64,000 bases of DNA from Anaerococcus tetradius ATCC 35098 (GTDB taxonomy: Bacteria; Bacillota; Clostridia; Tissierellales; Peptoniphilaceae): contig NZ_GG666296.1 of NCBI RefSeq assembly GCF_000159095.1, positions 398,720-462,719 of the forward strand. Direction: 5' to 3'. The translations under genes and the position numbers were made by a program. A model generated the notes under the pieces. That model did not search any database. It was given only the letters and a program-made list of their open reading frames with translations, and was not told the origin of the DNA. This document shows, in pieces, positions 17,383-53,200 of the stretch (positions are counted from its first letter, which is position 1; every line of letters starts with the position of its first letter).

Positions 17383-17489
17383 ATAAAAAACTTGCAAATG
17401 CAAGTTTAGTGTACACAGCGTACAACCTACTACAGGTAGGCGAATTGAATAAATTTTTATTTGAACTCGTTAGTAATTTAAGTACTAAC
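17383..17489 (-). ncRNA. tracrRNA of the type II-A CRISPR system
   Basis: Read on the minus strand, 17489-17459 is an anti-repeat. TACTTAAATTAC and TAAC match the complement of the CRISPR repeat, then GAGT forms the usual bulge, then TCAAAT pairs with the repeat start GTTTGA. The layout parallels the S. pyogenes duplex (lower stem, bulge, upper stem). Downstream hairpins follow: AATAAA/TTTATT (nexus-like), CCTAC/GTAGG and TGTAC/GTACA. The end is the terminator stem AAACTTGCA / TGCAAGTTT (17388-17407) and a T run. Length is about 100 nt. It directs RNase III processing of the pre-crRNA and loads Cas9. Confidence 0.88.
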
Positions 17490-17532: not shown

Positions 17533-20500
17533 ATGGGAAATTATTATTTAGGATTGGATATAGGAACAAACTCTGTTGGCTGGGCAGTTACTGATGAAAA
17601 TTATAATATTGAAAGATTTAAAAAGAAAAATATGTGGGGAATTAGGCTCTTTGATGAAGCAAAAACTGCTGAATCAAGAAGAATTCATAGACAAGCAAGA
17701 AGGATGAGGCAAAGAAAGATCCAAAGGCTTAATCTATTAATGGAATTATTTGATGTAGAAATTTCAAAAGTAGATGAATCGTTCTTCATTAGGAAAAAAG
17801 AGAGCGACCTTCATTATGAAGATAAATCTCAAGATTCTAGATATGCACTATTTAACGACAAAGAATTTAATGACAAGGATTATCACAATAAATATCCTAC
17901 AATTTTTCATCTTATAATGGATTTGATTGAAAATGATGAAAAGAAAGATATTAGGCTACTTTATCTCGCTTGCCACTATCTAATAAAAAATAGGGGACAC
18001 TTTATTTTTGAAGGTCAGAAGTTTGATGTTAATTCTAGTCTAAATAATAATATAAATAAGTTAAAATCACACTTGGATCAATTTTACAATATCTGCCTTG
18101 ACTTTGATAATGATAAATTAATAGAGATTCTTGTTAATCAAAACTTAAATATAAGTGAGAAGTCAAAGAAGATTAAAGAATTACTTAGGAAAACTAACTT
18201 GGAAGTAGGTATAGCTAATCTCATAGCTGGTGGAAGTATCAAATTGTCAAATATGTTTGATGATGATGAACTAAAAAACCTTGACTATAATAGTTTATCT
18301 TTTAAAAATTCCAACTTCGATGAAGGAAGAGAATTATTTGAAGAAGTTTTAGAAGATAGATTTGAACTTGTTGAAATTTTAAAAGATATTCATGATGCTT
18401 CTGTACTTGAAACTATGTTATCTTCTGCTAGTATTAGTCCAGATGGTGGAAAATATATTTCATCTTCAATGATTAATTCCTATAACAAACATAAAAGAGA
18501 CCTTAAATTACTAAAAAAGATAATAAAAAAATATAAAAAATCAGAATATGATAATATTTTCAGGGATGAAAATATTAAAAACAATTATCTTTCATATACT
18601 AGAACTGGAATTAACAAAAATAAAAAAGTACAAGCTGAAGATAATACTGATTCCGATGGTTTTTACAAATATATTGTAAAAATACTTAAAGATATCAAGG
18701 AGAATGATTCAGATGAGGATATTAAATATATCTTATCTGAAATAGACAAAAAAAATTTCGTGCCCAAGCAAAGAACTAAGGAAAATTCTGTTATTCCATA
18801 TCAGCTAAGGGAAATCGAATTAAGGAAGATTATCGATAATCAATCTAAATATCATAAATTTCTAAACGAAGTTGACGAAAAAGGTATAAGCGTAAAGGAG
18901 AAAATCATTTCACTTTTAACTTTTAGAATACCTTATTATATAGGACCTCTTAACCCTTCCTATAATGAAGAAAAAAACTTTACCACATCTTGGGTTAAAA
19001 GATTAGCAAAAGGAAAAGTAACTCCATGGAACTTTGAAGATATGGTTGATATAGACGCTAGTAGAGAAGCTTTTATAGAAAATAAATTAAATAAATGTAG
19101 TTTTTTATTAGATGAAACAGTTCTACCAAAGGATTCCTTGCTTTATCAGGAATATATGGTTTTAAATGAGCTAAACAATCTTAAAATCAATGGTCAGTCT
19201 ATAAATACTGATTTAAAGAAAAGTATTTATGAAGAATTATTTAAAAAATACAAGAAAGTCACTCGAAAAAGGCTTATATCTTATATCAAAGAAAAAGAGA
19301 ACATGAGTGGAGATATTGTAATAACTGGCATAGATGGTGATTTCAAACAAGGACTTAAGTCTTATATTGCTTTTAAAGATATAATTGGCGAAAAAATCGA
19401 TGATGATATATATAGAAAAGAAGTTGAAAAAATAATTAGGGATATTAGTTTATATGGAGATGACAAAAGTTTTATCCAAAAGAAAATAAAAAATGAAAAT
19501 AAGCTCGACTTAAGTGATGATCAGATAAGTAAGATTGCAAAACTTAAATTTAAGGATTGGGGAAGATTTTCTAAAAAACTATTAGTGGGAATTAAGGCCT
19601 CTGACAAAAATACTGGTGAAATTGATAATATTATAGGATTTATGAGAAATTACAATTATAATATTATGCAATTAATGGCCAATGTTTTCACTTTTAAAGA
19701 TGAAATAGAAAAATTGAATAGCAAATATTACACAGATGAAAAAATAAATATTGACTACTTAGATGACTTATATCTATCATCTCCTGCTAAAAGGATGCTT
19801 TGGCAAAGCTTCCAAATCGTAGATGAGATAAAAAATATAAAAAATTCAGATCCTAAAAAGATTTTTATAGAAATGGCCAGATCTAAGGAAGATAAGCCTA
19901 CTAGAAAAATGTCAAGAAAATCTAGACTAGAAAAACTATACACTGATTCCAAAAAACAATTTATAAAATTATTTGGCCCTGATGAATATGATAAACTAAA
20001 TAACGAAATAAAAAATAAATCCGAAAGTGATTTTAGATGGGACAATCTTTATTTGTATTACACTCAATTTGGTAGATGTATGTATTCTTTAGATCCAATA
20101 GATTTGGAAGAATTAAGTAACAAAAACTTATATGACCAAGATCATATTTACCCAAAATCTAAAATTTACGATGATTCTATTGAAAACAGAGTTTTGGTTA
20201 AAAAACAATTAAATCTTGATAAATCTAATGAATATCCTATACCTGATAGAGTATTAAACAAAGATAAAAACAAACTTTTAGCCTTTTGGAAAATGCTAAA
20301 TGAAAAGGAGCTTATAGGCGATAAAAAATATGCAAGGTTAATAAGGAAGTCTCCATTTACGGACGAGGAATTAGGTGATTTCATAGCAAGACAACTTGTT
20401 GAAACAAGACAAGCTACAAAAGAAACTGCAAATATGCTAAAAAGGCTATGCCCTGATTCTAAAATAGTATATGTGAAAGCAAAAAACGTATCCGATTTCA

Positions 20501-21618
20501 GAAGAAAATTTGATATTTTGAAGTGTAGGAGCATAAATGATCTACACCATGCCCATGATGCATACCTAAATATAGTTGTAGGAAATGTATTTGATACAAA
20601 ATTTACGTCCAACCCTTTGAATTTCATAAAAAATAATTCGAAAAATAGAAGCTATAATCTAGAGAAAATCTATGATTATGATGTCATAAGAAATGAAAAA
20701 ATAGCATGGCTTGCTGAGAGAAAAGAAGAAAATCAAGATGGAAGTATAGCAACTGTATTAAAGAACTTGTCAAAAAATGATATAAGGGTTACACGAAGAA
20801 CTTATATAAAATGTGAAGATTTATTTGATGAAAATATCGTAAGAAAAGGTAATGGTAAGTTTCCGATAAAAGAGAATAATAATAAATCTGATACTAATAA
20901 ATATGGTGGTTATTCTGGTATAAAAAACGCTTACTTTGTATTGCTAGAAGATGAAAAACACAATAGAATCCTAGAAGCTATCCCAAGCTTTATCTACAAA
21001 AAAGAAAAAAATGGTGAAAAAGGCTCAGTAATAAATTATCTTCAAAATATCTTAGGTATAAAATCAGCTAAAATATTAAGAGATAAAATAAAAATAGGAA
21101 GTCTATTGAAGATAGATAAATTTCCATATAATTTAGCTGGCAAGTCAGGAAATGGAATACTTATTAGTGGTGGTGTGCAGCTAATACTAGATAAAAATAC
21201 TAGTAAATATATAAAGAAAATTGAAAATTACAAGTATAAGTTAGATGAAAATAAAGATTATCAAATAAACATATTTGATAAGTTAAGCAAGGAAGAAAAT
21301 ATAAAATTATTTGATTTATTTGTAGACAAATTTGAAAACTCAATTTACAAAAACAGGGTAAATATCAAATTAAAAGAAATCAAATTAGCTAGGCCTAAAT
21401 TTGAACATTTAAGCATTGAAGAGCAAATAAAAACCTTGACACAGATGTTAATATTATTTGGTAGGGAAAATAATGCGGTAAATTTGGAATATATAGGTTT
21501 ACCTAAAAATACAGGAAAAACTAAAATTAACAAGAAAATAAATAACAAGGATATAAAAATTATTAATCAATCAATAACAGGGCTCTACGAAACTGAAGAG
21601 GATTTGGCAAATATATGA
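17533..21618 (+). CDS. cas9: Cas9 endonuclease, type II-A
   Basis: This 1361-residue Cas9 appears intact. RuvC-I is YYLGLDIGTNSVGWAV with Asp9. The Arg-rich bridge helix spans about residues 50-75 (ESRRIHRQARRMRQRKIQRL). RuvC-II is IFIEMARSK with Glu780. The HNH domain contains DQDHIYPKS with Asp870 and His871, then ENRVLV. RuvC-III is HHAHDAYLNIVVGN with His1006 and Asp1009. A PAM-interacting C-terminal region follows to the end. The size and neighbours (csn2) place it in II-A. GGAGG precedes the ATG by 4 bases. Its stop overlaps cas1 by 4 bases. The PAM cannot be predicted from the sequence. Confidence 0.96.
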   Translation: MGNYYLGLDIGTNSVGWAVTDENYNIERFKKKNMWGIRLFDEAKTAESRRIHRQARRMRQRKIQRLNLLMELFDVEISKVDESFFIRKKESDLHYEDKSQDSRYALFNDKEFNDKDYHNKYPTIFHLIMDLIENDEKKDIRLLYLACHYLIKNRGHFIFEGQKFDVNSSLNNNINKLKSHLDQFYNICLDFDNDKLIEILVNQNLNISEKSKKIKELLRKTNLEVGIANLIAGGSIKLSNMFDDDELKNLDYNSLSFKNSNFDEGRELFEEVLEDRFELVEILKDIHDASVLETMLSSASISPDGGKYISSSMINSYNKHKRDLKLLKKIIKKYKKSEYDNIFRDENIKNNYLSYTRTGINKNKKVQAEDNTDSDGFYKYIVKILKDIKENDSDEDIKYILSEIDKKNFVPKQRTKENSVIPYQLREIELRKIIDNQSKYHKFLNEVDEKGISVKEKIISLLTFRIPYYIGPLNPSYNEEKNFTTSWVKRLAKGKVTPWNFEDMVDIDASREAFIENKLNKCSFLLDETVLPKDSLLYQEYMVLNELNNLKINGQSINTDLKKSIYEELFKKYKKVTRKRLISYIKEKENMSGDIVITGIDGDFKQGLKSYIAFKDIIGEKIDDDIYRKEVEKIIRDISLYGDDKSFIQKKIKNENKLDLSDDQISKIAKLKFKDWGRFSKKLLVGIKASDKNTGEIDNIIGFMRNYNYNIMQLMANVFTFKDEIEKLNSKYYTDEKINIDYLDDLYLSSPAKRMLWQSFQIVDEIKNIKNSDPKKIFIEMARSKEDKPTRKMSRKSRLEKLYTDSKKQFIKLFGPDEYDKLNNEIKNKSESDFRWDNLYLYYTQFGRCMYSLDPIDLEELSNKNLYDQDHIYPKSKIYDDSIENRVLVKKQLNLDKSNEYPIPDRVLNKDKNKLLAFWKMLNEKELIGDKKYARLIRKSPFTDEELGDFIARQLVETRQATKETANMLKRLCPDSKIVYVKAKNVSDFRRKFDILKCRSINDLHHAHDAYLNIVVGNVFDTKFTSNPLNFIKNNSKNRSYNLEKIYDYDVIRNEKIAWLAERKEENQDGSIATVLKNLSKNDIRVTRRTYIKCEDLFDENIVRKGNGKFPIKENNNKSDTNKYGGYSGIKNAYFVLLEDEKHNRILEAIPSFIYKKEKNGEKGSVINYLQNILGIKSAKILRDKIKIGSLLKIDKFPYNLAGKSGNGILISGGVQLILDKNTSKYIKKIENYKYKLDENKDYQINIFDKLSKEENIKLFDLFVDKFENSIYKNRVNIKLKEIKLARPKFEHLSIEEQIKTLTQMLILFGRENNAVNLEYIGLPKNTGKTKINKKINNKDIKIINQSITGLYETEEDLANI

Positions 21619-22493
21619 CATGGAGAACAGTTGTAATATCAAAAAGATCTAAGTTATTTCTAAAAATGGGTCATATGATAGTTAGGGACTTTGAAAATAA
21701 CATAAGTAGGATATATTTGAAGGATATATCACACATAATAGTTACAACTACAGAAGCATCAATTACCCTTGCCCTAATAAATGAGATACAAAAGCAAAAA
21801 ATAAAATTAATAATTTGTGATGAAAAAGGAAATCCAAGCGCAGAACTAAGTTCCTACTATAACTCATACAATTCTAGTGAAAAAATAAGGGCACAAATAA
21901 GGTGGACCAGCGACATAAAAGGTGAAGTATGGAAGAGAATTGTTGAAGAAAAAATAAAAAATCAGATGCATCTGTTAAAATCTTTTAGACTGGAAAAATC
22001 AAATCTTCTTGAAGGATATTTGGGGCAAGTGGAAATATTTGACTCAACTAATAGGGAAGCTCATGCAGCTAAAGTTTATTTCAATTCCTTATTTGGAAAT
22101 GACTTTTCTAGAAATGACGATACTAATCTAAACGCTAACCTAAATTATGGATATTCAATAATACTATCGGCAATAAATAGATGTGTTGTTTCCATGGGAT
22201 ATCTGACTCAGTTAGGTATATTTCATGAAAACATATATAATCAATTTAATTTATCAAGCGATTTAATTGAACCATGGAGGCCAATGGTAGATAGGGAGGT
22301 CTTAGATATGGATTACAATAGATTTGAAAAATGTCACAAAAAAAGATTAATAAATCTATTAAATAAAAAAGTGAAAATAGATCAAAAAGAATGGTATTTT
22401 AATCAAGCATGTCATATATATTGTAAATCAATAGTGGATGCACTCAACAATAAAGATACTTCAACAATGCTGTTTCCTGCTTATGAGTTATAG
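21615..22493 (+). CDS. cas1: Cas1 integrase, type II
   Basis: This 292-residue Cas1 is of the length usual for type II systems. It begins MTWRTVVISKRSKLFLKMGH. It contains NREAHAAKVYFNSLFG, the helical-domain active-site region with its conserved Glu and nearby acidic/His residues. LIEPWRPMVDREVLDMDYN supplies the Asp-rich part. With Cas2 and Csn2 it integrates new spacers at the leader end. Start and stop overlaps with cas9 (ATGA) and cas2 show tight coupling. It shows no damage. Confidence 0.95.
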   Translation: MTWRTVVISKRSKLFLKMGHMIVRDFENNISRIYLKDISHIIVTTTEASITLALINEIQKQKIKLIICDEKGNPSAELSSYYNSYNSSEKIRAQIRWTSDIKGEVWKRIVEEKIKNQMHLLKSFRLEKSNLLEGYLGQVEIFDSTNREAHAAKVYFNSLFGNDFSRNDDTNLNANLNYGYSIILSAINRCVVSMGYLTQLGIFHENIYNQFNLSSDLIEPWRPMVDREVLDMDYNRFEKCHKKRLINLLNKKVKIDQKEWYFNQACHIYCKSIVDALNNKDTSTMLFPAYEL

Positions 22494-22804
22494 ATTTATG
22501 AGAATAATAGTATTTTTCGACTTGCCAACGACAAGTGCTATAGATTTAAAAAATTACAGAAATTTTAGAAAATTTTTGATAAAAGAAGGATTTATGATGA
22601 TGCAGGAATCAGTGTATACGAAAATAACTAAAAATATGGCACATTCCACTGCTATAGCTCATCAAGTAAAATTAAATCTACCAAAAAAAAGGACTCGTTC
22701 AAATGTTAACAGTAACAGAAAAACAGTATTCTAGAATGGAAATTCTATTAGGTGAAGAAAATGGAGAATATATTAACGACGATAGGAGGTTAATAATCTT
22801 ATGA
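22483..22804 (+). pseudogene. cas2: cas2, broken by one extra base in an A8 run
   Basis: The N-terminal 67 residues are a typical Cas2 (MSYRFMRIIVFFDLPTT, then YRNFRKFLIKEGFMMMQESVYTKI). At 22683-22690 there are eight A after CC. As written, the frame goes on with an unrelated arginine/asparagine-rich tail and stops at 22734 (83 residues). With seven A the frame would read on as GLVQMLTVTEKQY and EILLGEENGEYI, the normal Cas2 C-terminus, to a TGA at 22802-22804. That stop would overlap the csn2 ATG by 4 bases, exactly as cas9 overlaps cas1. The intact product would be about 106 residues. It may be a true mutation, a slippery tract corrected by polymerase slippage, or a sequencing error. Confidence 0.85.
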
Positions 22805-23469
22805 TTCTAACGTCGGAATATCTAGAAAAGTCCTTTGAAATAAAGGAACAAAGACTGAATACAATTGTTTTAGAAAACAAAATATATTATAGAAAAATCA
22901 TACAGGCAGTTAGAGATACAATAAATTTAGACCTTAAGGAATTTGTTCTTTATGAAGACGAAGAAGAAGTAAAGTTAAATAAAATTGCGGAACTAATAAC
23001 AAATGTTTTTAACATAAATCCTAATGATAACAAAATATTAGCTAAATTATATGAAAAATTAGGACAGGAAATAACTTACGAAGATATCTATTGTTATAAT
23101 AGAAATTTTAAAAGTGCTCTATCAAAGCTATTAGAAGAGCTATCAATGTTAAGTGAATATGACTTCAAATATGAAGATGTAGATTATAAATATATATTCA
23201 AGGCTGTAGGATTAGAAATTGATACAAAATTTACAGGCTTGATGGCTAATATAATTGAATATCTTGATATATCCCACAAACTTCTAAATAAAAAAATATT
23301 CTTCATAGTAGGAATTGACGATTACTTTGAAGAAAGAGAATTGTATGATTTAAATGAATATCTGTGCTATAATGATATTATAGTAATTTGCTTACAAAAT
23401 AGGTTAGATAGAGATCTTCTTCCTAATGAAAATCTTAGGATCATAGATGAAGATTTAGGAGAAATCTAA
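22801..23469 (+). CDS. csn2: Csn2, type II-A adaptation protein
   Basis: This 222-residue protein ends the cas operon and fits the Csn2 family in length, position and sequence (N-terminal ILTSEYLEKSFEIKEQRL, later FFIVGIDDYFEERELYDLNE). Csn2 forms a toroidal tetramer that binds DNA ends and is needed for spacer acquisition with Cas9, Cas1 and Cas2. A perfect AGGAGGT lies at 22784-22790. Its ATG overlaps the stop of the ancestral cas2 frame. Only 39 bases separate its stop from the first CRISPR repeat. Confidence 0.9.
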   Translation: MILTSEYLEKSFEIKEQRLNTIVLENKIYYRKIIQAVRDTINLDLKEFVLYEDEEEVKLNKIAELITNVFNINPNDNKILAKLYEKLGQEITYEDIYCYNRNFKSALSKLLEELSMLSEYDFKYEDVDYKYIFKAVGLEIDTKFTGLMANIIEYLDISHKLLNKKIFFIVGIDDYFEERELYDLNEYLCYNDIIVICLQNRLDRDLLPNENLRIIDEDLGEI

Positions 23470-23480
23470 AAAAGTAAAGC

Positions 23481-23515
23481 CTCAAACCTCAAAAGTCGTT
23501 AATTTGAGGTTTGAG
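23481..23515 (+). promoter_or_regulatory. CRISPR leader end with ATTTGAG anchor and 13-bp inverted repeat
   Basis: The last seven leader bases are ATTTGAG (23502-23508), the same as the leader-anchoring sequence known from Streptococcus type II-A loci that fixes spacer integration. CTCAAACCTCAAA (23481-23493) and TTTGAGGTTTGAG (23503-23515) form a perfect 13-bp inverted repeat with a 9-base loop. The second arm runs across the anchor into the first seven bases of repeat 1. The whole leader outside csn2 is only 39 bases, with no clear array promoter in it. Confidence 0.7.
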
Positions 23516-24867
23516 AGTTATGTAATTTAAGTAGTAAGTAAAACCAAAAACTCCTTATTCCTAACCTTTTTATGAGTTTGAGAGTTATGTAATTTAAGTA
23601 GTAAGTAAAACTGCGTAGACCTATTTCTATGCTTTGTGATTCGTTTGAGAGTTATGTAATTTAAGTAGTAAGTAAAACAGGTAAATCTCTTTCCAGCATC
23701 TCTTCCTAGTTTGAGAGTTATGTAATTTAAGTAGTAAGTAAAACGTTTATAATGGAGTTAAAGGAGAACCCTATGTTTGAGAGTTATGTAATTTAAGTAG
23801 TAAGTAAAACTAGAATACTCATTAGCATATTTCCCTCTAAGTTTGAGAGTTATGTAATTTAAGTAGTAAGTAAAACCATAGAAAATTGCGGCAACGCTAA
23901 AGATTAGTTTGAGAGTTATGTAATTTAAGTAGTAAGTAAAACAATTTCTCTTTCTTATCATTTCCCTTATAAGTTTGAGAGTTATGTAATTTAAGTAGTA
24001 AGTAAAACTAAGTAATTATTATATTTATCTTTCAATTTGTTTGAGAGTTATGTAATTTAAGTAGTAAGTAAAACTCAGAAAAACATCATCATTCACATAC
24101 TCGATGTTTGAGAGTTATGTAATTTAAGTAGTAAGTAAAACCTCACTCCCGGAGGTCATTATATATTAATAGTTTGAGAGTTATGTAATTTAAGTAGTAA
24201 GTAAAACAGTATAGGTAAAGCCTGTATTCTTAGCCCCGTTTGAGAGTTATGTAATTTAAGTAGTAAGTAAAACGCAGGCAGTCCGACCACTATAAACGGT
24301 ATGGGTTTGAGAGTTATGTAATTTAAGTAGTAAGTAAAACAAAAGCAATGATACAAAATACAAACTTTGAGTTTGAGAGTTATGTAATTTAAGTAGTAAG
24401 TAAAACTTTATATCAAGGAACAAGGATCACTAATCTGTTTGAGAGTTATGTAATTTAAGTAGTAAGTAAAACTATATCATCTATGAAATGTTTATCTCCA
24501 TCGTTTGAGAGTTATGTAATTTAAGTAGTAAGTAAAACGAGCCTTGGCTGGTGGATATAAGATGTTTAGTTTGAGAGTTATGTAATTTAAGTAGTAAGTA
24601 AAACCTTTGCATCGGCAAAGGGATAAATGTCCCGTTTGAGAGTTATGTAATTTAAGTAGTAAGTAAAACTAATCATAAGAGATTATCCGTATTATTAGAG
24701 TTTGAGAGTTATGTAATTTAAGTAGTAAGTAAAACAAAAAGACTTTATTAACCCATATCCCACAAGTTTGAGAGTTATGTAATTTAAGTAGTAAGTAAAA
24801 CTTATGAATTGAGGATAAAAAAATTATTAAAGTTTGAGAGTTATATATTTTGCTAGCAAGCAAAAAT
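23509..24867 (+). CRISPR. Type II-A CRISPR array, 21 repeats and 20 spacers
   Basis: Twenty identical 36-bp repeats begin GTTTGAGAGTTATGTAA and end AGTAAGTAAAAC, starting at 23509, 23576, 23643, 23709 and so on to 24766. A twenty-first repeat (24832-24867) keeps only the first 12 bases well and is degenerate after that, as expected at the leader-distal end. Spacers are 29 to 31 bases (mostly 30), and all 20 look different. The orientation follows from the leader next to csn2 and from pairing of the repeat start with the tracrRNA. No spacer was seen to match elsewhere in this window by eye. Confidence 0.98.
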
Positions 24868-42360: not shown

Positions 42361-44118
42361 ATGAAAAAAGCGAAAAGAATTTTAGCATTAATAACTTCAT
42401 TAACTATAGTTGCATCAAATATAAGCCCAGCTTTTGCGGGAAAATTTGAAAGCGAATACAATGATATAAACAAAGACAAGAAATATCCCCAAATAGATAA
42501 TAGAATCATCAACACACTAGATAATGATGAAATTTATAATCTAAAGGAAGGGGAAAGCATAAGTGATCCAGAACAGCCTGATGTCTATACATACAGGTGG
42601 TCTTACAAAAGACCAGTAACTGGAAGATCGGTAAACATTAAGGAAATGGAGCTTGCCTCCCAACCCTATGTAGCAAGCGTTGGAGAAAAGGCAAGCGAGG
42701 AAGAAAAAGCCAAGGTAAATTACAAGCTTAAACCTCCAATCCTTAAAGGATACAAGAAGCCAGAAGAAGATTATCAAGCAAGCTATGACTTCATAAAGGA
42801 CAATGCTAGTGAAAAAGAAGCCTTCCTACACAATGGCACAAGGGACATAAACTACGAGCCTACCACAAACAGTGGCATCAAGGTAAAACACCTCTTTCAA
42901 AAACTGGAAGATAGAAACTCCTACGAAAACCTAGATGGTGGAGCTGACATCATAACCAAGCAGAAAAACTTCTTTGGAGAATTTCCAAAGACAGGTCAAA
43001 AGTTGAAGCTTGATAATCTCTTCAGTAGAAATGTCGAAAACCCAATAGGTTATTCGGACAGAGAGTTTTTGGATTTGAAAGAAAAAATCAAGGGATTCGA
43101 ACCAGAAAGAAATGCCGACAATTTGGAAATAATTGTTCCAGAAGTTGCTAACGCTCCTTTTGTAATCCACTACAACAGAAAGAGCTTCCAAGTAAAAATA
43201 AATACCGATGGAGGAACTTACATTCCAGATATGATCCTCTTTTATGGTCAAACTATCCCACCAGTAACACAGATACCTAAAAAAGACGGAGCAGTATTCG
43301 ATCATTGGGAAGCAGATAAGGATATTTTAATAAAAGATAAGAGTGGGGCAGAAACAACAATAAAAGCCAAGACTCCTATCGATATGAAAAAATATCAAGA
43401 TGGCTTTAGACATGCTATGCCGGCAGAAGATATCACCTTCAAGGCTATCTATAAGGAAAATGATAAGGCTGAGTATTCGGTGGAATTTTGGGTAGAAAAA
43501 GCAGATTATGATGACAAAAAGCCAAATCTTTCCATCAAAGATAAGTATGAATTTGTTGGAAACCGTGTACTTACAGGTAAGACAGGATCCGTTCCAGATA
43601 TAGCCAGTACATCCAAAGATGGTATAGCCTTTCCTGACCTAGACAAGGCTAGGCTAAACAAAATTTATAAGGATAGTGCTGAGTTTGATAAATATTTTAA
43701 GTATAACAAGGAACTAACCGACAAGCAAAATCAAGATGTATCCAATGAAAAGGTGGAAGATGATTCTGGCGAATCGGTATACAAAAAAGTCTCTAGAACC
43801 ATAGACGCTGCTGGCAATACCAGCTACAAAATCTACTTCGATAGGCAAGTCTACACCCTCTACTTTTCAAAGTTAATTACGGAAAATGATAGTAAAGGTG
43901 AATTTTGGCCTATTATTACAAAGGATGGCAAGGTCTATGACTCTAAAAAAGGCAATCCTTATAGCTTCAAGGCTCGTTTTAACCAAAACTTGCAAGGCTT
44001 GTGGCCAGATCCAATCGAAAATGTCAAAGGCTACCCTGAAGATTATCGTAGTTTGGGTTGGGTAGCTTCGACCAAGAATAAAGCATATTCTTATAGGGAT
44101 ACCCACCCTATAGGCTAA
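42361..44118 (+). CDS. Giant secreted surface protein, N-terminal piece before a frameshift
   Basis: This 585-residue piece has a Sec signal peptide ending AFA at residue 26. A region shared with the next giant protein follows (QPYVASVGEKASEEEKAKVN) and then an InlB B-repeat-like domain (FQVKINTDGGTYIPD to HWEAD). It stops at 44116-44118 in THPIG. Two bases into the last codons, the third frame carries PPYRLTADDFLD, which matches PPYRLNADQFLD in the paralog at 54624-62348, and it stays open to the next piece. One base is therefore missing in the GATACCCACCC stretch at 44098-44108. This is the start of a single gene reaching 54257. If the lesion is real, only this secreted fragment is made. 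Confidence 0.85.
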   Translation: MKKAKRILALITSLTIVASNISPAFAGKFESEYNDINKDKKYPQIDNRIINTLDNDEIYNLKEGESISDPEQPDVYTYRWSYKRPVTGRSVNIKEMELASQPYVASVGEKASEEEKAKVNYKLKPPILKGYKKPEEDYQASYDFIKDNASEKEAFLHNGTRDINYEPTTNSGIKVKHLFQKLEDRNSYENLDGGADIITKQKNFFGEFPKTGQKLKLDNLFSRNVENPIGYSDREFLDLKEKIKGFEPERNADNLEIIVPEVANAPFVIHYNRKSFQVKINTDGGTYIPDMILFYGQTIPPVTQIPKKDGAVFDHWEADKDILIKDKSGAETTIKAKTPIDMKKYQDGFRHAMPAEDITFKAIYKENDKAEYSVEFWVEKADYDDKKPNLSIKDKYEFVGNRVLTGKTGSVPDIASTSKDGIAFPDLDKARLNKIYKDSAEFDKYFKYNKELTDKQNQDVSNEKVEDDSGESVYKKVSRTIDAAGNTSYKIYFDRQVYTLYFSKLITENDSKGEFWPIITKDGKVYDSKKGNPYSFKARFNQNLQGLWPDPIENVKGYPEDYRSLGWVASTKNKAYSYRDTHPIG

Positions 44119-44228
44119 CAGCAGATGACTTCCTAGATTCTAGCGATATTAAAGATAAAAAAAAGGGTGGTTACTCAAAGACACTTCCCCTTGGCGATAA
44201 TGGCGAAAGGCCATTAGGAGAAAGGGAG

Positions 44229-47200
44229 ATGTGCTTTGGTATAGATTCAAGTGATCAAAGCGTACCTTACCAAGTTCAGTTTATTATGGATACCTATCCT
44301 GGTTTTGAAGTTGAAGGCGAACATGTAGAATCCCTCCACGACTTTGCCCTACATTATAGGAAATTTGATTCCCCTTTAGGTGATTATGATTTCACTCCGC
44401 CTGATATAGAAGGCTTTGAGCCAAAAAATGAGAAAACAAAAAGAAAAGAAGCGAAGGATAAGGATGATTGGGAAGGACTAAATGATGAGGATAGTGATAG
44501 GTTAGAGGAATTTAAGACCTACCTAAAATTTATAGGAGCCCCAAGAGAAGATGTAAAAAACTATGAAGACCTCTATAATGAAAAATATAAGATAAGATTT
44601 TTAGGTCAGTTTCCTGAAAAAGTTGAGAATGATCAAGAAGAAGAGAATCAAGATGAAAATAAGGAAGAGAATAATCAAGAGGGCAATCAAGAAGATAAAA
44701 ACAAGGAAGAAAATAATCAAGAAAAAGAAAATGTTGAACCGATAGAATTTGATCAAAATTACAATCTAGAATTTGAATATTCACGCAAGTCCTACACAAT
44801 AAACTTTAACAATGACCCAAGAAAGGTTAGGGATGATACTTCCTACAAAAAATCAGAAAAAGAATCAGTCCCTTACCAACATCCACTAAGGTGGCTAGAC
44901 GGAGTTTACAACTTTGATTATGATAAGTCTGATGAAGAAAACAAAGAGGCAAGGGAAGAATATGATCAAGAGCATATCATAGACAATAGGGTTCCAGAAA
45001 AGCCTGCTTGGGTGCCAAAGTCCTGGAAGTTTTTGGGTTGGTCCTTAAACCCTGAGGGCACTAGCCTAGTTAGGGATGGAAATTATACCATGCCAGCTCG
45101 CAATATTACCCTCTATGCTAAATGGGGATGTGATACCAAGAGGAAAGTTACTTTCGATTTAGGCTTGGATGCTGGTGAAACTACTAAGTACATGATAAAG
45201 GCTAATGACCTAAAGAGTATCAAGTATGATGTTGGCGATGACGTAAGGACAAGTATTAAGGAAAATAAGAAGTACAAACTCCCTACAGAAGATAAGACTT
45301 CGACTTCTGGCAAGCAAGTCTTTCTTGTTGATAATGGTTTATCTATAAAATCCCCAGCCATACCTAGAAGACCTGGTTATGATTTTATGGGTTGGGAGCA
45401 TGTAGTATATAAAAAAGATAGCAAGGGAGACGATACTAGCGAAGTTGATGATTCATTCAAACAAAAATATCATCTACCTCGCCAATATACTTTCGAAAGT
45501 GAAGTATATTCGGATGTTTACCTAAAGGCTATTTGGGCAAAGAACAACCTCTATGATGTTAAGATAAAAGATCATATATTAGACGATAAGCTAAATGAAG
45601 TAAAGACAGAAACTAATATTTTGGAAAATCAAAGAGAGGGTACTTTTGCCTTCTACTTTGCAAGACTCCAAGGCGAAAAGCTAACCCTAGTAGCAGATAA
45701 GGATCTTGACCAAGCACCAGAAGATGTCAAAAACACCTTTACACAATACAGGGCTAAGCTTAAAGAGAAATCTGCCATAGCTGATAATAGAAATGCTGAT
45801 TCAAGCGATGGGGTAAATACCTACTATCAAAACATCAAGGTTGATCCTACCACTTCCCCAAATGCCTACAATGAGTTGCAATTTTTCTATAAGCCATATC
45901 GTAAGAGGGAATACAAGGTAAATTACCTACTCGTAGATAATAATGCCGACCTTAATGATACAAAAAAATACCCAAGTGTTGGAAAGCCAAATACAAACTT
46001 GACCAAGCCAATAATGGATCAGGATGATGTATTAAATGGTAACAGACACTACGATGCGAGAAACTTTAGGTCAATCCCAGGTTTTAAACTTGTAAGCAAG
46101 CCTCAAGTTCAACTTGTTTTCGATGTAAATGAAGAAAATAACAAGCTTCTAAAAATAAATGGAGTAGATGTTGGAGATGATTTAGAAAATGCTCAAGTCA
46201 ACTTCTACTACAAGGATATTAGGGTTATCAAAAATAATGGCGATAAACCACCAAAAGGCTATCATAGGGTAAGCTTTATAGCAAAAGACCATGGTTCATT
46301 CGGTAAGGATGAACATGGCAAGCCAATCAAGGAAGTCCATTACGATGTTATTGATGGTTTGTACTTTGCCAAAGCCCATGTTCCTACTAATGAGGGTAAA
46401 AAAGATAAGAATGACGCAGACCTTATCGCAGATCCTGGCTATCAAATAGGTAACTGGTCGCAAGAAGGCAATCCTACAAGTGGCTTGCTTGATCCTTATA
46501 CAGTTATAAGCAAGGATTACACCTTCGAGATTAACTTTATAGAAAGAAAGTATCCGGAAATAAGTCCTATCAAGGTCTTTGAATCAGCTAAGGATGGAGA
46601 TAGCTATATCAACAACTTTATGCTAACTAAGGCTGATTACGATAAGGCCCTAGAAGACTTTAGAAAGATGCCTGATTACGAGTCTTACCAAATACTTGAT
46701 GACGATGAGGCTATTTATGAAAAGCTAAAGGAAGATCCTCTTTATAGGGATCAACCTTCTGACCCAGAGCCAATCAAGACAAGTATAAGGGTCAAAATCA
46801 ACTTTAATGATAAGTCTAGCAAAGAATTTGCTATTCCAGTCTTAGTTTACAAAAATATTTACAGGGCCCTTGATAGCAAGAGCAAACCAAATATCGTAAA
46901 TAAAGATGACTTCTTGAAAGGTTTTGTTAAAGTAACAGTTGACCCAACTGATAATGCGACTGATAAGCAAACAAAAACTTATTATGTAAATCCAAAGGCA
47001 AAGCTGATAATTCCAGAAAAAGACCCAAGTCCAGAAGATGCCAAGAAATATACTTTTGAAAAATGGTCTGATGGAAAGGTGGACTATAACTTTAAATATA
47101 GATTTAAGTTCCAAAAAGATACAGAGATCCAAGCTATATATAAGGAAGATAAGAAAGATATTATAGCCTATGATCCAAAAGAACCAATCACAAGACCAGA

Positions 47201-50200
47201 AGGCTATGTGAGGGTAAGCTTTAAGGCAGACGAAGGTCTAAGCCTTGGTCAAGAAAAAGCCTACTATATAAGGAAGGAAGCAAAAATCAATCTAGGAAAT
47301 AAGGCGATTGAAAAACCTTCTGTAAATAATGACATAGGCTACAAATTTGACAAGTGGGATTATAAGGATGACACACTTATCGACAAAGATATCCTAGTGA
47401 GGGCAAAAGCCACAAAATTTGATGATGTAATAGCAAAAATTGATGAAAATACTAAAAAGCCAGACAGATATGTAGAAGTAAAATTTGTTGCAGGGGAACA
47501 TGGTAGCGTTGAAGAAAAAACATACTATGTAAATCCAACCAAGTATGTAAAACTAACCCCACCAAGCACCAAGGCCGATACTGGTTATACCTTTGCAGGT
47601 TGGGATAAGAATGCTACAGAATTTAATATCTACGATACAGGTACAACAATCACAGCAAACTTTAACCCAATTGATTCTGTAATACCAAAGACCAAGGATG
47701 ACGATTCAGAAAAACCAGCGGGCTTCGTAGAAGTAAACTTTGAAATAGAAGGAAAAGGTGGAAAAATAGTAGACGGACAACCAACAACCTACTATGTAAA
47801 ACCAAATACCGAAGTAACAATCCCACAACCACAAACCAAGGCAGACATAGGCTATGAGTTTGACAAATGGGAACCAGATACAACAACTCCAAGAAAATAC
47901 ACAGACAAAGTAACAACAATAAAAGGTTCCTTCAAAGCCCTCCCTGCATATATACCAGCAAAAGATAAAGACGAAAAAGATAAACCTAATGGATATATAA
48001 GAATAGTCTTTAGGGCAGATAAAAATGGTTGGCTAGCTGATGAACAAAATAATTTTATTGACCAAAAAGTTTACTATGTAAATCCAAAGGCGAAAATTGA
48101 CTATGTGAAGGACTTAACACAAGGAATAGAAAAAGTCGCAAACCCAGCCTACACAGCAGACGGTGGATCTTGGAAAGACGAAACAGGCTTACTAAGTAAA
48201 CTCTTCACCAAGGACAAACTATATGTCTACCACTTCAAAGAAGCCCAAAATATAATAGCTGAAGGAAATGGTCAACCAATACCAGACGGATTTGTAAAAG
48301 TAAGCTTCAAGGCTGACGAAAATGGCAAACTAGAAGGCGACAAAAAAGAAATCACCTACTATGTAAACCCACAAGCAGGCATCAAACTAGTAGATGGTCA
48401 AGCAGGCGAGAAAGAACTTCAAGTACCAGATACAAAGCCAGATGAAAATTACAAATTCATCAAATGGTTTGAAGCTATTGACAAAACCACACCAATAACT
48501 GGAAATAGGGAATATGTTGCAATCTTTGGAAAAACTGAAGTAAGCTTAACCTACGACCTAAACGGTGGAAGTGGAAAAGCTCCAGAAACTAAGAAAGTTC
48601 CTTACGGCACAAGCCTAAGGCTTGCAACAGATGAAGGCATAAGCAAAAAAGATGCCAAATTCATAGGTTGGGATATAGAAGGAACAATCTACAAGCCAGG
48701 AGCTAAAATTACCCTAACCAAGGCTCAAAAAGCTAAAGCTAAATGGACTGATGATGAAAATATCATCTCATACAATCCAAAAGATCCAATCACAAGACCA
48801 TCTGGCTATGTGAGAGTAACATTTAAGGCTGACAAAGGCCTAAGCCTCACCGAGGAAAGAGCCTATTATGTAAAAGCTGACAAGGGAATAAGCTTAAAAG
48901 AAATAAAAGATAATAAAGTGTTAGGATACCCAACATATGCAGAAGAAACTGGCTATAGTTTCAACAAGTGGGATAAAGACGAATCAACAGAAATAAAGAC
49001 AGACATTGAACTAACAGCTAAGGCAAGAGAAGTTAATGATGTAGTGCCAAAAACTAAGGACGACGATTCAGAAAAACCAGCGGGCTTCGTAAAAGTAACC
49101 TTCGTAGCAGGGGCAAATGGAAACTTAGGAAAAGAAACAAATACATTCTTTGTAAATCCAAACAAGTATGCAAAACTAACCCCACCAAGCACAAAAGCAG
49201 ATACAGGTTATGTATTTGCAGGCTGGGATAAGAATGCTAAAGAATTTAATATCTACGATACAGATACAACAATAAAAGCAAGCTTTAACCAAATTGATTC
49301 TGTAATAGCAAAAACAAAGGATGACGACTCCGAAAAACCAGCTGGCTTCGTAGAAGTAAACTTTGCGATAGACGGAGAAGGTGGAAAAATAGTAGACGGA
49401 CAAGCAAAAACCTACTATGTAAAACCAAATACCGAAGTAACAATCCCACAACCACAAACCAAGGCAGACATAGGCTATGAGTTTGACAAATGGGAACCAG
49501 ATACAACAACTCCAAGAAAATACAAAGACCAAGTAACAACTATAAAAGGTTCTTTCAAAGCCCTCCCTGCATATATACCAGCAAAAGATAAAGACGAAAA
49601 AGATAAACCTAATGGATATATAAGAATAGTCTTTAGGGCAGATAAAAATGGTTGGCTAGCTGATGAACAAAATAATTTTATTGACCAAAAAGTTTACTAT
49701 GTAAATCCAAAGGCGAAAATTGACTATGTGAAGGACTTAACACAAGGAATAGAAAAAGTCGCAAACCCAGCCTACACAGCAGACGGTGGATCTTGGAAAG
49801 ACGAAACAGGCTTATTAAGCAAATTGTTCTTCAAGGACAAACTATTTGTCTACCACTTCAAGGAAGCCAAGAATGTAATTCCTGATGGAGAGGGTCAACC
49901 AATACCAAAAGGATTTGTAAAAGTAAGCTTCAAGGCTGATGAGAATGGCAAACTAGAAGGCGACAAAAAAGAAATCACCTACTATGTAAACCCACAAGCA
50001 GGCATCAAACTAAAAGTTCTAGGTAAAAATGAACAAGCATCTGATAAAGAACTTGCAGTACCAGAAGCTATCGCTGATAAAGACTACACTTTCACCAAAT
50101 GGGTAGAAGACCTAGACCTAGAAAACCCAATCACAGGTGATAGAAAATATGTAGCAAAATTCGCCAAAGGTCAAGTAAGCCTAAACTATGAAATAGGAGA

Positions 50201-53200
50201 AGATGCCCAAGGTACAGCTCCAGAAACAGTAACAAGAGCAAAAGGCACAAAAATAAGACTTGCAAGCGATAAAGGCATTAGTAAAAAAGACCACACATTC
50301 AAAGGCTGGAAAATAGGAGATGAAATCTACCAAGCTGGAGATGAGATAACCCTAAACAAAAACACAACAGCCACAGCTCAGTGGGAAAAAGATGCGGATG
50401 TTATCCCATACAAGCCAGAAAACCCAATAGCAAAACCACAAGGCTATCACAGGGTAAAATTTGAAGCTGATAACGGATTGGAATTAAGTGATGTTAACTA
50501 CTACTATGTAAAAGATGGAAGTACACTAAAACTCGATGATCAAACACCAATCAAATATCCAACAGCAAGCCCTAAAGTAGGATACAAGTTTGACAAATGG
50601 GACAATGGCCCAGAAATCAAAAACATAACAGAAGATGTAACAATAAAAGCAACATCAAGGCAACTTCCACCTACAATCGAAAAGAAAGATGGAGAAGACA
50701 AACCAGACGGTTATGTAGAAGTAAAATTTGTTGCAGGGGAACATGGTCAGCTAGAAAAAGATGGAAAGAAAATAGAAGAAAAAATCTATTATGTAAATCC
50801 AACCAAGTATGTAAAACTAACCCCACCAAGCACCAAGGCCGATACAGGTTATACCTTTGCAGGTTGGGATAAGAATGCTACAGAATTTAATATCTACGAT
50901 AAAGATACAACAATCACAGCAAACTTTAACCCAATTGATTCTGTAATACCAAAGACCAAGACAGATGATTCAGAAAAACCAGCTGACTATGTAGAAGTAA
51001 ACTTTGAAATAGAAGGAAAAGGTGGAAAAATAGTAGACGGACAAACAACAACCTACTATGTAAAACCAAATACCGAAGTAACAATCCCACAACCACAAAC
51101 CAAGGCAGAAATTGGCTATGAGTTTGACACATGGGATAAGAATACAAGTGAAAAAGCTGAGTATTCAACAGATACAAAAGTAAAAGGAAGCTTCAAAGAA
51201 CTAGACAAATATATCCCAGCCAAAGATGGCAATATAGAAAACAAAAAACCAGAGGGATATATAGCAGTAGTATTCAAAGCTGACAAAAATGGAAGCCTAG
51301 AAGAAAAAGGTCAAACAATCGACCAAAAACTATACTACCTTCACCCAGACCTTAAAATTAATGAAGGATTAGTAGAAAAACTAACAAAAGACCTAGTCAA
51401 AAAACCAAACCCAGCCTATACAGCAGATGGAGGAAATTGGAAAGACGAAACAGGCTTATTAAGCAAATTGTTCTTCAAGGACAAACTATTTGTCTACCAC
51501 TTCAAAGAAGCCAAGAATGTAATTCCTGATGGAGAGGGTCAACCAATACCAAAAGGATTTGTAAAAGTAAGCCTAGTTCCAACCGACAAGGCAAAAGATT
51601 CTACAGAAAAATCATATTGGGTAAATCCAAGAGAAGAAGTAGAAATCCCATTCGATAATCCAGAAGGAAAAACTGTTGAAGACAAAGCTCACAAAGGCTA
51701 CAAAACAAGCTACACCTTCAAAGAATGGAAAGTAACAAAAGGAAGCGTAGCGACCTATACAGGTAAAGTAAAGGGACAATTCAAAGAAGAAACAGTCCTA
51801 GAAGCGACTTATACAGTAAAAACTTCAGGAAATATGGGAGAACTTCTTCCTGCTCCAAATGCAAAGAAGAAAATAGTAGTTCCACTAGGAAAGAAACTAG
51901 AAGCTGAGGAACTAATAGCAAATATTCCAGGTAAAGGTGATAATCCACTAGCAAAAGGAACAAAGATAAGCTACGAAGATGGCGAACCTGACACAAGCAA
52001 GCCAGGCAGACCAACAGCCAAAATCAAGATAGAATATCCAAACGGCAAAATCGTAGTAATCGAAGTACCAATAAAAGTAGTAGATAACATCGTTCCACAA
52101 GAAGGAGATGACAAGCCAGAAGTGCCAGCAAACTATGTAAAAGTAGTAATAGACACAACAGACAAGGCAACAGAAAACACCTACTTTGTAAAAACCTACT
52201 GGGTAAACCCAGAAGCAGAAGTAAGCTTCCCTGTTAAAGCTCCAAGTGGAAAAGCCGATAAGCAAGGAGAAATAACGAAGACCTATAGCTTCAGCAAGTG
52301 GCAAGTAGAAAATAGTGATAAAACTTACGACAACGAAATAAAAGATACCTTCAAGGCTGATACGACAATCAAAGCAAGCTATAGCGAAGGTGAAAATATT
52401 AAGCCAGAAGCTAATGAAGGCCTACTAATTCCAGAAGATGAAAATCCAGATCCTAGGGACTTCATCAAAAACGACTACGATGACAAGAATCCAGATAAAA
52501 AGGACAAGCTTCCACCAGGAACTAAGTTTACCTTCAAGGAAGGCAAAGATCCAAAGACTGATTCACCTCATGAAGGAAAAACAACTATAGTTGTTGAATA
52601 TCCAAACGGAGAAAAGAAGGAAATAGAAGTAGGATACAAGGTCGTAGGAAAAGTCGTTCCTCAAGAAGGAGAAGAAAAACCAGAAGTTCCAGATGACTAT
52701 GTAAAGGTGAGCCTAGATCCAACTGATAAGTCAGATGATCAAGAAAAAATCTATTGGGTAAGGCCAAGAGTTGAAGTTACAATTCCTGACTACAAGCCAC
52801 AAGGAAAAGATGGCTGGCAATTCTTAGATTGGGAAAAGAGCCTAAGATCAGTCTTTATCAAAAATACAGAAATAAAGGCAAATTATACGATGCCTTATGT
52901 TCCAAGATATGGTAATATAAACGCTTATGGTAATGAGATTATAACTGCTAAGGGATGTCAGCCTTCCGAAGAAGATTATAGAAGTGTAATCGAAATTGAA
53001 GAAGATGGCAAGCCATATCATCTAACAGACGAGGATAAGATAGAGTATACAGAACCTAATGTTGATGAAGTAAAAGCACATAATGTTGATGTTACGATAA
53101 GCCTAAAAGATGGAAGAACAATTGAGGCGATAGTTAAAGTAATAGTAGTTGATAATATTTTCGAACTAGATAAGAGCAATCCAGAAAATAATACAAATGT

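Follow-up and report, generated by a model that had tools for sequence, protein, structure and literature searches.

A frame-broken cas2 gene in an otherwise intact type II-A CRISPR-Cas locus of Anaerococcus tetradius, and integrase lesions in related genomes

The type II-A CRISPR-Cas locus of A. tetradius ATCC 35098 carries a cas2 gene that changes frame at a tract of eight A. We consider it rather probable, from the sequence, that the lesion is a real and recent loss of cas2, which would leave the memory frozen but still armed. Integrase lesions of a comparable kind are found repeatedly in related genomes. This goes beyond the first-pass annotation of the DNA, and the integrase-biased pattern among the csn2-bearing genomes of the order is the part of this work that is new and worth following.

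The locus and its broken cas2 gene

The window, by which we mean the whole stretch of 64,000 nucleotides that was analyzed, corresponds to C99:398720-462719 of a draft genome of 2,145,347 bases. The genes of the locus lie in the order cas9-cas1-cas2-csn2 and are followed by the CRISPR array (Table 1). The first-pass annotation had described cas9, cas1 and csn2 as whole and the array as holding 20 distinct spacers. Both descriptions held: the three proteins, whose completeness we judged by comparison with NCBIfam models, matched these from end to end, and the array consists of 20 perfect repeats plus a degenerate terminal one, with all 20 spacers distinct. A tracrRNA is predicted upstream of cas9 on the opposite strand. 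Its candidate promoter (TTGACA-16-TATAAT, 17517-17490) agrees with the consensus at 12 of 12 positions, its anti-repeat is a repeat-like match at 17460-17488, and its predicted fold (z -3.77) was better than all of 200 shuffled sequences. The leader ends in ATTTGAG, a motif described for Group 1 (PMC5382924). Full-length Cas9, the Csn2 signature, the presence of cas1 and of the broken cas2, the predicted tracrRNA with its anti-repeat, the leader-end motif and the repeat array place the locus among type II-A systems. With those of the Group 1 leader class it has in common the gene order, Csn2, repeats of 36 nt, ATTTGAG and a tracrRNA upstream of cas9; it differs from them in its frame-broken cas2. 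Among the 31 genomes of the genus that were examined, csn2 was found in this one only.

Table 1. Positions of the features of the locus within the window.
Feature	Position	Strand	Basis and remarks
tracrRNA (predicted)	17388-17488	-	Anti-repeat 17488-17460, structured tail, terminator hairpin 17407-17388
cas9, 1361 aa, intact	17533-21618	+	TIGR01865 profile 1-1070 of 1070, 886 bits
cas1, 292 aa, intact	21615-22493	+	TIGR03639 profile 1-277 of 278; 4-base overlap with cas9
cas2, zero frame, truncated, 78 aa	22498-22734	+	64 Cas2 residues plus 14 foreign residues
Eight-A tract AAAAAAAA	22683-22690	+	Site of the cas2 frame change; read from the sequence
Conserved Cas2 C-terminal part, other frame, 37 aa	22691-22804	+	Alignment and profile match; no further damage
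csn2, 222 aa, intact	22801-23469	+	TIGR01866 profile 1-222 of 222; PADLOC Csn2
Leader-end motif ATTTGAG	23502-23508	+	Sequence; abuts the first repeat
CRISPR array, 20 perfect 36-nt repeats	23509-24801	+	19 spacers between the repeats
Spacer 7	23943-23972	+	Exact match, duplicated prophage-like element of same-genus genome G017
Spacer 9	24075-24105	+	3 mismatches, DnaD-like replisome-organizer gene in G018
Spacer 12	24274-24304	+	Phage repressor genes: 1 mismatch in G017, 2 in G018
Spacer 15	24473-24502	+	1 mismatch, phage terminase large-subunit gene in G017
Spacer 20	24802-24831	+	
Degenerate terminal repeat	24832-24865	+	Aligned to the repeat

The zero frame of cas2 runs from the ATG at 22498 to a TAG stop at 22732-22734, and its product matched the NCBIfam model TIGR01573 over profile positions 1-63 of 96 only. 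It had been claimed at first pass that the gene is broken at the A tract and that another frame restores a normal C-terminus overlapping csn2 by four bases, and our analysis bears this out. The second frame has 37 open codons before a TGA at 22802-22804, its product ends in RLIIL, and its end overlaps the csn2 ATG at 22801 by these four bases. The C-termini of ten intact Cas2 proteins from relatives align with the 37-residue product, which on its own matched the Cas2 profile at positions 61-101 (E 4.3e-13), so that cas2 as a whole yields two separate matches to this profile, at positions 1-64 and 61-101. Because the C-terminal frame is open, aligns with relatives and is profile-positive alone, misreading of a gene boundary does not account for the break. 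Among the five Cas2 sequences with a solved structure that we found, three align across all 101 profile positions. A PF09827 search of the genome returned the cas2 of this locus as the sole Cas2 match and found no second copy. At the level of the assembly, the locus thus has a disrupted integrase gene with no second copy behind it, as expected of one that is dead for adaptation.

Error, mutation or switch at the A tract

The first-pass annotation had itself raised the alternative of a sequencing or assembly error. The length of the tract would then have been miscalled, cas2 would be intact in the living strain and the locus would be an ordinary, competent type II-A system. We rank this explanation second. 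A homopolymer lesion would, taken by itself, make an error look more probable than it is here, because all of the 1090 assessable A/T runs of 6-8 bases in the stretches sampled keep the frame. The case for an error starts from the lesion, in which an eight-base run is off by a single base, since homopolymer length differences are a common assembly error; for one clostridial genome, the excerpted report lists 207 of 243 discrepancies in homopolymers of more than 5 bases, which were judged to be sequencing errors (PMC4687164). The draft is also fragmented, with 100 contigs and N gaps, and the part of cas2 that lies 3' of the break is undecayed, which fits an error too. Further isolated frame breaks are present in the assembly, in an ABC transporter gene and a large surface-protein gene, and the sole assessable run of nine bases, in a larC-like gene, breaks the frame as well. 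Against an error stand the run counts, the intact eight-A run in cas9 and the finding that relatives carry integrase lesions outside homopolymers.

For the run counts, sampled stretches of this genome (682 kb, of which about 397 kb were assessable) were compared with the same-genus genome G015, and alignment on either side of a frame change was required before a break was counted, so that badly damaged genes were classed as not assessable. The frame was kept in 799/799 runs of six, 257/257 of seven and 34/34 of eight, and in 0/1 of nine; a further 699, 284, 50 and 5 runs of these lengths were left unassessable. Homopolymer errors are thus not widespread in the assembly. Eight-base A/T runs are ordinary in this genome, and the 34 assessable others all lie in conserved genes; with the cas9 run added, 0/35 were broken, which gives a 95% upper bound of 8% on broken runs of eight. 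A smaller and looser count found the frame kept in 116/117 sevens, 13/13 eights and 0/1 nines. The one seven flagged there (C99:84498-84504) was rejected, as it lies in a damaged gene and fails the two-frame criterion of the final count.

The nine-base run consists of T and belongs to C99:94645-94656 (locus L127), where the gene that we take to be larC-like shifts frame; in G015 the corresponding run is of ten bases, and the ORF, of 432 aa, is intact. In lactobacilli, larC is subject to programmed frameshifting, of which the excerpts returned by our literature search made no mention. The ABC transporter gene, named from its sequence, breaks frame without a long run. Within the window, the ORF at 42361-44118, whose start resembles a signal peptide, and that at 44229-54257 (3342 aa) appear to be parts of a single, very large surface-protein gene spanning 42361-54257; its frame breaks near 44100, and no long run is found there. 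At about 84.5-85.9 kb of C99, two adjacent genes with stops, a deletion and a frame break form an apparently decaying pair. The gene at 85.3-85.9 kb was rejected as an example of error, as its in-frame stop and damaged neighbor speak for ordinary decay.

The reverse scan, over about 399 kb of G015, returned three frame rows, which we attribute to overlaps at gene starts or to a small ORF of doubtful status and not to true breaks. A first homology scan against a non-syntenic stretch of a relative, covering about 39 kb, found no frame break in either direction. A scan for frame changes by coding potential was discarded: it reported mostly operon junctions and missed both frame breaks of the window.

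The first-pass annotation had also suggested that polymerase slippage or reversible switching at the tract might control adaptation. Slippage would then yield some full-length Cas2 or toggle the gene and so meter adaptation, a proposal that we find improbable. Bacterial A runs can slip: there are reports for A or T runs of 9 bases, and for long poly(A) tracts of endosymbionts 12-50% of transcripts are given as corrected in the excerpt at hand (PMC5009743). The downstream Cas2 frame is moreover conserved and undecayed. An evolved slippage switch is nevertheless unlikely, because the tract is not conserved in other cas2 genes. Conservation between relatives would be expected of a phase-variable gene; among 100 other cas2 loci, the longest A run at the lysine-rich site (codons 56-70) was 8 in just 3, 7 in 1, 6 in 17 and at most 5 in 79, with a mode of 5. 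Three loci with no recognised start were left out of this survey, in which at least three species occur twice. Runs of this length are also commonplace in the genome, and rescue would require an unusual slip, one that runs counter to the -1 frameshift usual in bacteria. The literature excerpts retrieved on CRISPR phase variation by homopolymers contained nothing on cas2. The long A tract would most simply reflect chance plus lysine codons, although slippage may permit leaky expression of Cas2.

Integrase lesions in related genomes

We surveyed the order to which A. tetradius belongs. A csn2 model scored over its cut-off in 18 of 249 genomes, from each of which one locus was taken (17 plus the window; a second contig of G089 was left out). 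A broken integrase gene was present in four of these 18 csn2-bearing genomes, affecting cas2 in two and cas1 in two. Besides the genome studied here, these are G044, where cas2 has a TGA at codon 58 (L214, G044:C1:16001-30000) and cas9, cas1, csn2 and an array of 22 repeats are intact; G125 (L218/L022, Peptoniphilus obesi), where cas1 has a TGA at codon 3, which another start might rescue, in an operon that is otherwise whole and has 15 repeats; and G060, where cas1 has a TAG at codon 48 and the contig ends after four repeats. A close parallel is the G044 locus, from the same family: there too cas9, cas1, csn2 and the array are intact and cas2 alone is broken. It differs in that the lesion is a nonsense codon with no homopolymer, in another genus. 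By contrast with the integrase genes, cas9 was intact in 18/18 loci, as was csn2, which however served as the anchor of the search. The comparison of 4/18 with 0/18 gave P 0.0025, or 0.011 without the window and 0.05 without the window and G125, values that, like those below, presuppose that all codons are equally mutable and the loci independent, and that come from a test devised after the first lesions had been seen.

To these 18 loci were added 14 from the class (from 16 strong new ones, G492 and G572 being left out) and 80 from the genome collection, for a total of 112, of which 107 were distinct. The 80 had been ranked by their Cas2 match and are therefore biased against cas2 lesions. Lesions were called by alignment to references and inspection; ORF length alone was set aside as a basis, as were references with long N-termini, which over-called. 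Loci at which a contig edge, N or a partial alignment interfered were set aside, five for csn2 and nine for cas9 (L032, L036, L038, L041, L045, L050, L095, L233 and L242). Among the distinct loci, cas1 was broken in 5/107, cas2 in 2/107, cas9 in 3/98 assessable (L047, L075 and L051) and csn2 in 0/102 assessable, with several of the comparison lesions lying in MAGs or drafts. Per codon, lesions were 7.4-fold more frequent in cas1 plus cas2 than in cas9 (7 versus 3 in 107 loci, P 0.003); the excess was 6.3-fold (P 0.008) without the window and 5.3-fold (P 0.023) without the window and G125. In L038 and L050, cas9 has a stop close to the contig end. Counting these two doubtful cases as lesions left 7 versus 5, a 4.5-fold excess (P 0.010), or 3.9-fold (P 0.026) when the window was omitted as well. 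L049 was rejected as a cas9 lesion, as its stops fall only within the N-terminal extension of the reference. L051 (Gemella haemolysans DNF01167) lacks the first two thirds of cas9, of which 389 codons are left, with other ORFs upstream; cas1, cas2 and csn2 are whole and the N gaps lie elsewhere, and the locus was therefore kept as a true truncation. As a separate observation, most of cas1 is deleted in L239 (G478), where about 64 codons are directly followed by cas2, with cas9, cas2, csn2 and an array of 14 repeats intact.

The A. tetradius locus would thus be one of several integrase losses in the order, losses that would best be explained by selection that is weaker or intermittent on adaptation compared with that on interference. 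A stronger proposal holds that type II-A systems of the order are repeatedly and selectively frozen, their integrase lost or switched off and Cas9, tracrRNA, Csn2 and array kept by selection, and that this state is advantageous and, here, possibly reversible through the A tract. We think this doubtful; were it true, less autoimmunity and the keeping of prophages would be the benefits. Whether CRISPR stops learning before it stops defending bears on the cost of adaptation. Should a larger survey, verified by reads, bear out the excess of integrase lesions, finding cas9 with an array would be no grounds for assuming that a system adapts, and past exposure to phages could be dated from frozen arrays.

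Cas9 loci that are dead for adaptation are already known, and the present one is a further example. House-finch isolates of Mycoplasma gallisepticum likewise have a type II system in which mutations inactivate Cas1 or Cas2, but unlike the present locus they have Cas9 inactivated too, according to the excerpted report (PMC11893278). Clade 3 of Campylobacter coli resembles our locus in having cas9 and repeats with no usable integrase; as far as the excerpt describes it, the system differs in being of type II-C and in that cas1 and cas2 are wholly absent rather than freshly broken (PMC4607530). Excerpts of mycoplasma reports in which cas9 itself is broken argue against a general rule that the integrase goes first (PMC8725752, PMC6882279, PMC11893278). 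In the excerpts retrieved on type II-A cas2 frameshifts, on CRISPR in Anaerococcus or Peptoniphilus and on loss of the adaptation module, no report of this locus was found.

Predicted consequence and stored spacers

The explanation that we favor is that a genuine, recent one-base change in the length of the A tract inactivated cas2. The 78-residue product would lack the C-terminal part by which Cas2 joins Cas1, so that no integrase or capture complex should form and no spacer would be added. Adaptation has in this way probably been lost at the locus. In the S. thermophilus complex only Cas1 was recovered when Cas2 was absent, and the C-terminal strand of Cas2 adds to the Cas1 sheet, as the excerpted study describes (PMC6620040). 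For S. pyogenes, the Cas2 C-terminus is reported, again in excerpt, to be essential for the interaction with Cas1 (PMC12216489), and Cas1, Cas2, Csn2 and Cas9 are all reported as essential for type II-A acquisition in the part of a further article at hand (PMC7316486). That the truncated product might be a working short Cas2 is hardly credible: the invariant FDLP region and the rest of the N-terminal part are retained, but the product lacks both the Cas1-docking strand and the C-terminal third, which is in frame in 16/18 loci of the order, and its final 14 residues are unrelated to Cas2.

After a genuine loss of cas2, phages that match any of the 20 stored spacers should still be cut by Cas9 with the tracrRNA. 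The first-pass annotation had predicted such a state, with adaptation off and interference on. The prediction follows from the anatomy of the locus, in which cas2 is broken and the effector parts look intact, and the intact-looking tracrRNA, the leader motif and the phage-matching spacers strengthen it; both halves stay predictions from sequence.

Four of the 20 spacers, one of them exactly, match phage-like DNA in two genomes of the same genus, G017 and G018 (Table 1). The system therefore appears to have adapted in the past, and its memory appears to be relevant. The target of spacer 7 lies outside any ORF of at least 130 aa. The 3' flanks of the four targets fit NNRA, which with n=4 is only a hint. 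A search of phage records with the spacers gave no significant match (all E 0.4 or worse), and viral contigs contained no exact copy of the 25-base cores taken from spacers 1, 2, 3 and 7. Weaker matches within the genus were seen in G020, G022 and G030 (E 3e-4 to 5e-4). In G017, the prophage-like element occurs twice within 914-968 kb of contig C1, the two copies lying about 36.7 kb apart, and in each of them spacers 7, 12 and 15 have their targets.
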